Under the pieces are notes generated by a model. The model was not told the origin of the DNA. It saw nothing but the letters and a program-made list of their open reading frames with translations, and ran no database searches. From an uncultured SAR86 cluster bacterium (lineage in GTDB: Bacteria; Pseudomonadota; Gammaproteobacteria; Magnimaribacterales; D2472), in assembly GCA_902514105.1 (NCBI GenBank), contig CABXPU010000001.1, positions 1-36,104 of the forward strand: a stretch of 36,104 bases of DNA, written 5' to 3'. Positions 15,219 through 17,123 of this stretch are shown one piece after another. The position numbers and the translations under genes are program-made. Position 1 is the stretch's first letter. Each line of letters opens with the position of its first letter.

Positions 15219-16211
15219 ATGGACAAAAGTTCAAAGATTTTTATAGAGAATATTTCTAAACCTTTAAGAAAAATTGTTTCTGATGCCTCTAAGGAAATAA
15301 TGACGGTCTATGAAAGCGAATCTTTTAACACCCAAACAAAAATGGATGGATCTCCTGTCACTGAGGCTGATAGAAAAGCCCACAATGTAATTATTAAGGG
15401 ATTAAAAACTCTAACCCCAAACACACCAGTTATTTCTGAAGAAAGTTATGATGCTTCAAAAAAATCACCCAGTGGACGATATTGGTTAGTTGATCCACTT
15501 GATGGGACTAAAGGGTTTATTAATAAAGATGGAAATTTTACAGTTAATATCGCATTGATAGATAATACTGTGCCTATATTTGGGATTATTGAGGCCCCAG
15601 CAACCGGAAAAATTTGGTCAGGATCATTTTTTCAAAGACCACCTAGACGCTTTAGACTTGGAGCTATGTTTTTCTTTATAGGGCCATTAGCTTTATTTGT
15701 ATCAAACATCTTTGGTCCAATTAGCGCCTTAATCTTTTTGATGCTATTTTGGATTATTCCTTGGTTTAACCAGCATAAGAGTTATGGACCTCATTCAGTT
15801 ATAAAAGAAAAGATTGATGGAAAGCTTGTATATAAAGACGGCCCATTAAGATTGGTCATGAGCAAGAATCATCAAACTGAAATCGATAGAAAATTTTTAG
15901 ATTTCCTTACCAGTAAAGATATTGCATATGATCTTGTAGAAAAAGGTAGCTCCCTCAAATTATGTGCTCTTGCTGACAATGAGGCTGATATATATCCAAG
16001 ATTTGGACCAACTTCTGAGTGGGATATAGCTGCTGGACATGCTTGTCTTATTAAGCAGGGTGGCAGAGTATGCCAGATCTCATCTGGAGACCATTTAACC
16101 TACTCAAAGGAAGATTCAATACTTAATCCAGCCTTCGCAGCTTTTAGAAATACCTACCTAAAAGATAGATATTTAGGACTTATAAGCGATTTTTATAAAA
16201 AATTGGTATAA
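15219..16211 (+). CDS. cysQ: CysQ-like 3'(2'),5'-bisphosphate nucleotidase (inositol monophosphatase superfamily) with hydrophobic internal insertion
   Basis: KMDGSPVTEADRKAH, VISEES, WLVDPLDGTKGFINKDGNFTVNIALI, GSSLKLCALADNEADIYPRFGPTSEWDIAAGHACL are IMPase/CysQ motifs. Residues about 137-192 form a hydrophobic insert. Confidence 0.85.
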   Translation: MDKSSKIFIENISKPLRKIVSDASKEIMTVYESESFNTQTKMDGSPVTEADRKAHNVIIKGLKTLTPNTPVISEESYDASKKSPSGRYWLVDPLDGTKGFINKDGNFTVNIALIDNTVPIFGIIEAPATGKIWSGSFFQRPPRRFRLGAMFFFIGPLALFVSNIFGPISALIFLMLFWIIPWFNQHKSYGPHSVIKEKIDGKLVYKDGPLRLVMSKNHQTEIDRKFLDFLTSKDIAYDLVEKGSSLKLCALADNEADIYPRFGPTSEWDIAAGHACLIKQGGRVCQISSGDHLTYSKEDSILNPAFAAFRNTYLKDRYLGLISDFYKKLV

Positions 16212-16212
16212 T
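16204..16212 (+). promoter_or_regulatory. Putative extended -10 promoter element (TGGTATAAT) for rpoH
   Basis: TGnTATAAT read directly, overlapping the cysQ stop codon about 50 nt upstream of the rpoH ATG; no good -35 seen. AT-rich context lowers confidence. Confidence 0.4.
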
Positions 16213-16262
16213 TAGTCTAAATATATTAATAATTATTATATTTAATTATAAATATTTCATAT

Positions 16263-17123
16263 ATGGGAACAGAATTACAACCAATTCAGTTAACCACGCC
16301 AGGCAAGGATATAGAATCCTATTTGGCTTGTGTTCACTCGATACCTATTCTTACAAAAGAACAGGAGCAAGAACTCGCCTTAAAATTATATGAAGCTGAT
16401 GATTTAGATGCAGCTAGACAGCTTGTGATCCACCATCTTCGTTTTGTTGTTCATATAGCAAGATCTTATCAAGGGTACGGACTACCTCTGGCTGATATTA
16501 TTCAAGAAGGTAACGTTGGCTTAATGAAGGCGGTTGATAAATATGACCCTCACAGAGGCGTAAAAGTTGTATCTTATGCAGTGCATTGGATTAAAGCAGA
16601 GATTCATGAATATATTCTTAAAAACTGGAGACTGGTTAAAATTGCTACAACAAAAGCTCAAAGGAAATTATTCTTTAATTTAAGAAGCAGGAAAAAGAAT
16701 CTTGAATGGCTTACAAAAGATGAAGCTGCAAGCATAGCAAAAGATTTAAATGTTGAAGTTAAAGATGTCCTTCATATGGAAAATCGGCTTTCATCAACGG
16801 ATGCAGCCTTTGATTCACCAATTGGAGGAGATTCAGACAATGACATGATGTCTCCATCACAGTTCTTAGAAGATAAAAGTAGCAACCCAGAAGTTTTGGC
16901 TGAAGAGAGTCAGATGAATGAACTTAATTTAGCAGAATTAAGCGAAGCAATTAAAACTCTCGATGAAAGAAGTAAAGACATTATTCAAAGAAGGTTCCTA
17001 TCTGAAGACAAAGAAACACTTCATGATTTAGCTGCTGAATATGATATCTCGGCAGAAAGAGTAAGACAGATTGAAAATGGAGCTCTTAAGAAATTAAAAG
17101 CACTTATGTCTAACGCAGCCTAA
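16263..17123 (+). CDS. rpoH: RNA polymerase heat-shock sigma factor RpoH (sigma-32)
   Basis: RpoH box region [13 protein letters not shown]; sigma region 2 [61 protein letters not shown]-type sequence; region 4 [26 protein letters not shown]. Confidence 0.95.
   Translation: [286 protein letters not shown]

Follow-up and report, generated by a model that had tools for sequence, protein, structure and literature searches.

The window, the whole stretch of 36,104 nucleotides that was analysed, is from a member of SAR86 and carries a gene whose product is probably a CysQ-type 3'(2'),5'-bisphosphate nucleotidase, tethered to the membrane by a hairpin that was built stepwise with a piece of ftsK, encoded on a recombined allele and acting on AcpS-derived PAP. 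A more specific version, in which the anchor was made by an in-frame copy of about 60 bp of the unrelated essential gene ftsK and the allele spread among SAR86 species by short-tract homologous recombination, thus relocating PAP recycling to the membrane, has about an even chance of being correct. The hairpin, two helices within one surface loop, would fasten CysQ to the inner membrane from the cytoplasmic side. Both halves of the enzyme would then be cytoplasmic, the two helices would span the membrane or dip into it, and the uncharged Asn-Ile-Phe-Gly-Pro turn would be located either outside or within the outer leaflet. The features of the locus are the following:

15219..16211, + strand: cysQ-like gene, 330 aa, IMPase-superfamily phosphatase of the CysQ type (ORF call, profile and structure matches)
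15479..16457, no strand: tract of homologous recombination that includes the insert; identity to genome G004 is 92.4 %, that of the flanks 63-78 %
15492..15509, + strand: metal/catalytic motif DPLDGT, residues 92-97, invariant or nearly so across 43 orthologues
15627..15845, + strand: expanded loop, residues 137-209, 73 aa versus 17 aa in the congener G003 (from the loops of about 42 family orthologues)
15636..15656, + strand: basic N-terminal flank RPPRRFR, residues 140-146, predicted to be on the cytoplasmic side by the positive-inside rule
15657..15713, + strand: hydrophobic helix 1, L147-F165 (AlphaFold2, hydropathy)
15693..15752, + strand: 20-codon block LFVSNIFGPISALIFLMLFW, absent from the form in genome G129 and similar to the coding region of the fourth transmembrane segment (TM4) of ftsK
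15717..15785, + strand: helix 2, P167-Y189, hydrophobic up to F183, followed by a basic flank (AlphaFold2, hydropathy)
15798..15839, + strand: VIKEKIDGKLVYKD, predicted beta-hairpin linking the helices back to the core (AlphaFold2)
16017..16040, + strand: second motif EWDIAAGH, residues 267-274 (orthologue alignment)

The reading frame is free of stops and frameshifts. Its product matched the Pfam family Inositol_P (PF00459; E 1.4e-43) in two stretches on either side of the insert, and the NCBIfam CysQ profile TIGR01331 (E 9.7e-68; 228.5 bits versus a cut-off of 228.8) in a match likewise split in two; all other NCBIfam models remained far below their own cut-offs on this protein. A Foldseek comparison of the AlphaFold2 model with the PDB revealed the fold of the IMPase superfamily, with CysQ of B. 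thetaiotaomicron (3b8b, E 3.3e-19) as best match, followed by other enzymes of the superfamily, M. tuberculosis CysQ being within the top five. A preliminary description, made from the sequence, had read the catalytic and metal motifs as unbroken, and SEE, DPLDGT and EWDIAAGH are indeed all present, (near-)invariant among 43 orthologues and aligned with 3b8b. The fold and the motifs DPLDGT, EWDxAAGH, GSSLKxC and YPRFGPT are common to the window protein and known CysQ (TIGR01331; E. coli, M. tuberculosis, B. thetaiotaomicron), but these lack the loop of 73 residues that, in the window protein, places a hydrophobic hairpin between the enzyme halves. The Inositol_P and CysQ profile matches omit residues ~136-209, and the alignment to 3b8b omits the same stretch. 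The gene is part of a block conserved throughout SAR86: alkaline phosphatase (in most genomes), cysQ, rpoH and trmB. An association of the insert with the upstream alkaline-phosphatase gene was rejected, as the same gene adjoins insert-less cysQ in many genomes.

The insert occupies a length-variable loop between core strands. In comparison to the insert-less congener G003 the loop has grown from 17 to 73 residues, a net gain of 56, in agreement with the in-frame insertion of about 55 aa proposed earlier; of the span given for it, the start at 15627 stands, the end at 15794 falls short, since the altered stretch reaches to about 15845. The hydrophobic part, L147-F183, comprises about 37 residues, uncharged throughout, with basic residues on both flanks. 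Its best 19-mer has a Wimley-White octanol sum of about -17, versus about -3 at best in the conserved ORFs of insert-less relatives. AlphaFold2 modelled the window protein (pLDDT 86.3) as an IMPase core with helices at 147-165 and 167-189, and yielded the same two helices and core for the G004 orthologue, at a modest helix confidence (pLDDT ~50-85). Thus the two hydrophobic stretches and the Gly-Pro turn of the preliminary description reappear as two joined helices in two orthologues, and the basic flanks it had named are borne out by the sequence. The basic flanks and the uncharged turn SNIFGP suggest, by the positive-inside rule, that both ends of the hairpin are cytoplasmic. The hydrophobic runs of ~18-19 residues, with Pro, Gly and Asn in them, appear short for full transmembrane helices, therefore the hairpin may equally well be a shallow, re-entrant one. 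A Pfam search of the insert alone gave no match. An intein or intron was rejected for a segment of only ~56 aa that is in frame and conserved.

The full insert was found in frame in two relatives of the same genus, G004 (82 % identity) and G001 (79 %), of which one is a single-cell genome and the other a MAG, and in these two independent genomes the insert itself is 90 % and 83 % identical to that of the window. The preliminary description had left it to close relatives whether the insert is real; an assembly artefact or frameshift as its source was rejected on its in-frame conservation across independent genomes. G002, a long-read MAG of the same genus, has the insert in frameshifted form; its neighbouring genes are frameshifted as well, thus sequencing errors are the likely cause. 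The named carriers are SAR86, the single-cell genome AG-313-D02 and FRAM18 MAGs, some of them filed as SAR86B. The loci L094 and L095 (FRAM18_bin311 and bin313) come from MAGs, apparently long-read, with frameshifts in cysQ and its neighbours and unreliable gene calls. In a genome of another genus, G129, the form is 20 residues shorter and has one hydrophobic run of ~17 residues, which cannot form a hairpin spanning the membrane twice. The cysQ of G120 (L080) has a longer loop of intermediate length that is not hydrophobic and opens with the same FFxRP motif, and a seemingly similar FFxRP loop of intermediate length was found in G127 (L063), in a copy riddled with frameshifts; these loops may represent an early stage of the hairpin. 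A search specific to the insert in 107 family genomes, with a cysQ match in 97 and the loop read directly in about 42, detected no copy beyond the forms in G001, G002, G004 and G129; a search of viral contigs gave no relative. In a class-wide sample, none of the ~90 CysQ above the cut-off had an interrupted match, the matches running unbroken over 725-762 nt, while that of the window is split. The architecture is thus no standard CysQ feature in SAR86 or in the class sample, as had been supposed. A core tree without the loop placed G120, G129, G003 and the three full-insert proteins in one clade (support 99/96). As G003 lies inside this clade, the simplest reading is that it lost the insert or had it replaced. 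The insert is dispensable, since this congener does without it, which counts against the anchor. The unrelated charged expansion at the same loop position in another SAR86 genus (L086 in G085) indicates that the cysQ loop tolerates insertions repeatedly.

The allele has a mosaic history. Between the window and G004, nucleotide identity is 0.635 up to 15479, 0.924 from there to 16457 and 0.783 beyond, and nearly identical change points were obtained against G001, with 89 % in the tract; the sequence around the tract is otherwise 63-79 % identical. The tract, the sharpest and highest within the 36-kb window, includes the second part of cysQ as well as the 5' end of rpoH. G004 and G001 share a tract of their own, 15300-16754, so that exchange at the cysQ locus is recurrent; a chimeric window contig, though formally possible, is therefore not needed as an explanation.

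Part of the hairpin resembles a segment of FtsK. Among the weak matches of an insert search against the family genomes were FtsK frames, and about 20 residues from 159 on (to 178/179) resemble the fourth transmembrane segment of same-genus FtsK on the protein and the DNA level, above the nulls of real hydrophobic segments. The local alignment of the insert with FtsK scored 68 (shuffles 32 +/- 5), and the mean over 30 FtsKs was 51.8 (shuffles 29.4 +/- 2.8), exceeding all 289 real hydrophobic 41-mers; at the protein level the margin over the null is smaller, as real hairpins, paralogues included, reach 64 at the 95th percentile. Profile-profile comparison with FtsK gave an E-value of 1.2e-5, with 62 % identity over 21 columns and an hhalign probability of 81 %. 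In a BLASTN search over 61 genomes the best non-cysQ match was ftsK of G001 and G002 (E 1e-7, 79 % over 57 nt, in frame). As BLAST E-values are optimistic in these AT-rich genomes, an ungapped null of 220 hydrophobic 21-codon blocks was run against 428 kb: the cysQ block agreed with same-genus ftsK in 44-46 of 63 nt, versus a null mean of 36.6, and apart from it 40 of 63 was exceeded only by pairs that look like paralogues, judged from their sequences to be ExbD/TolR-like, ExbB/TolQ-like and FtsX-like. The ftsK-matched block and the one that G129 lacks have the same boundaries, give or take about two codons. From these similarities it appears quite probable that the block originated from ftsK, a fragment of which was copied into cysQ. 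Of the FtsK 4TM domain (PF13491) only ~20 residues are resembled in the insert and no other part of FtsK, and the Pfam model FtsK_4TM gave no match to the 72-aa insert; ftsK itself is still intact elsewhere (a 762-aa frame in G001). The recombination tract, the longer altered loop, the shorter hydrophobic form of G129 and the ftsK ancestry that half the hairpin appears to have are additions to the preliminary description. In the proposed order, the hairpin would have been built within SAR86 by lengthening and rising hydrophobicity of the loop to a G129-like form, by an in-frame copy of ~57-60 bp from the fourth transmembrane region of ftsK that turned one hydrophobic stretch into two, and by transfer of the allele between SAR86B species via homologous recombination over ~1 kb.

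This order could be reversed at one point, with the ftsK-like part present from the start and the G129 form derived later from the full hairpin by a deletion. G129 retains both flanks of the hairpin, as a deletion would leave them, but the gap matches the ftsK-like block within about two codons and the deletion must have hit there by coincidence; we regard this course as rather unlikely, and on the sequences an insertion into a G129-like loop as the likelier event. The entire hairpin, not just its second half, might also stem from another membrane gene, e.g., from the N-terminal hairpin of phosphatidylserine decarboxylase (Psd, gene psd). The membrane hairpin of Psd has the same layout as the insert in cysQ, a hydrophobic two-segment hairpin, a basic flank and then a DGK-containing strand. 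Against a Psd hairpin from genus g6 the G001 insert scored 82 (shuffles 28 +/- 5), and it was retrieved by a Psd query with an E-value of 3.6e-5. However, Psd of the same genus scored lower (30-61 for the G001 insert) and was mostly weak, the G129 form was near shuffle level, the hhalign probability was 46 % versus 81 % for FtsK, and no psd gene was among the matches listed in the DNA search. Psd was set aside as donor on this weak similarity, and such an origin is highly improbable; the resemblance is likely an analogy, and the two hairpins may work alike. The psd genes compared were L137-L147. This weaker similarity is a point against the preferred reading, since hydrophobic hairpins can evidently look alike.

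Other roles of the insert than that of a lipid anchor have to be considered. It may provide a hydrophobic surface for protein-protein contact, by self-association or by docking to a membrane protein, for which its marginal length for two transmembrane helices, the Pro, Gly and Asn within it and the single short hydrophobic run of G129 could be taken. The hydrophobic stretch is unbroken over its uncharged length between basic flanks, and in one half it is similar to a genuine transmembrane segment of FtsK, which renders a contact surface fairly improbable. Alternatively, the insert could be a nearly neutral passenger without a fixed role in a non-essential surface loop, carried along by recombination. 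Such a passenger would fit its lack in G003 and a loop length that varies in the family from 17 to 73 residues, with the unrelated expansion of G085 among the variants. Among the three full copies, however, pN/pS of the insert was 0.17-0.30 (C-terminal core 0.11-0.13), with bootstrap ranges that are broad, the stretch being short, and upper bounds below 1 for the 58-73 codon insert. The insert is thus under purifying selection, its substitutions keep the hydrophobicity and it was kept in three lineages, so that a passenger is improbable.

With the membrane anchor as the preferred reading, the substrate of the enzyme comes into question. CysQ removes PAP. AcpS releases PAP (3',5'-ADP) from CoA during the activation of acyl carrier protein. 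AcpS was present in 11 of 13 genomes of relatives; the genome of the window, 68 % complete, gave no match. Neither an APS kinase nor a PAPS reductase was convincingly detected in the relatives. Matches to the APS-kinase family were rejected as CysC, being partial (~90 of 152 positions, 23-31 bits) and in frames of 137-158 aa; they are probably another P-loop family, presumably TsaE. A published analysis of SAR86 likewise found sulfate incorporation without support (PMC11582366). With no sulfate-assimilation route to PAPS known for SAR86, and in view of the chemistry of AcpS, PAP released by AcpS is most likely the substrate of this CysQ. Closeness to membrane-linked lipid synthesis would be our guess for the benefit of an attachment. 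A literature search for a CysQ at the membrane gave a single promising paper, in which a cysQ is mentioned just as an adjacent gene (PMC10924467).

A membrane-linked member of the same superfamily occurs in animals. The Golgi PAP phosphatase gPAPP (BPNT2/IMPAD1) is anchored by one N-terminal transmembrane segment and has its enzyme part in the lumen. Both would be membrane-linked PAP phosphatases, anchoring and activity being predictions for SAR86, but CysQ of SAR86 has an internal hairpin and a predicted cytoplasmic enzyme. The locus presents a compact, testable case of a soluble enzyme gaining a membrane anchor, in which the likely donor, intermediate loops and the recombination tract are all visible. 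It raises the question why SAR86, with no known route to PAPS and PAP probably coming from AcpS, would dispose of PAP at the membrane.
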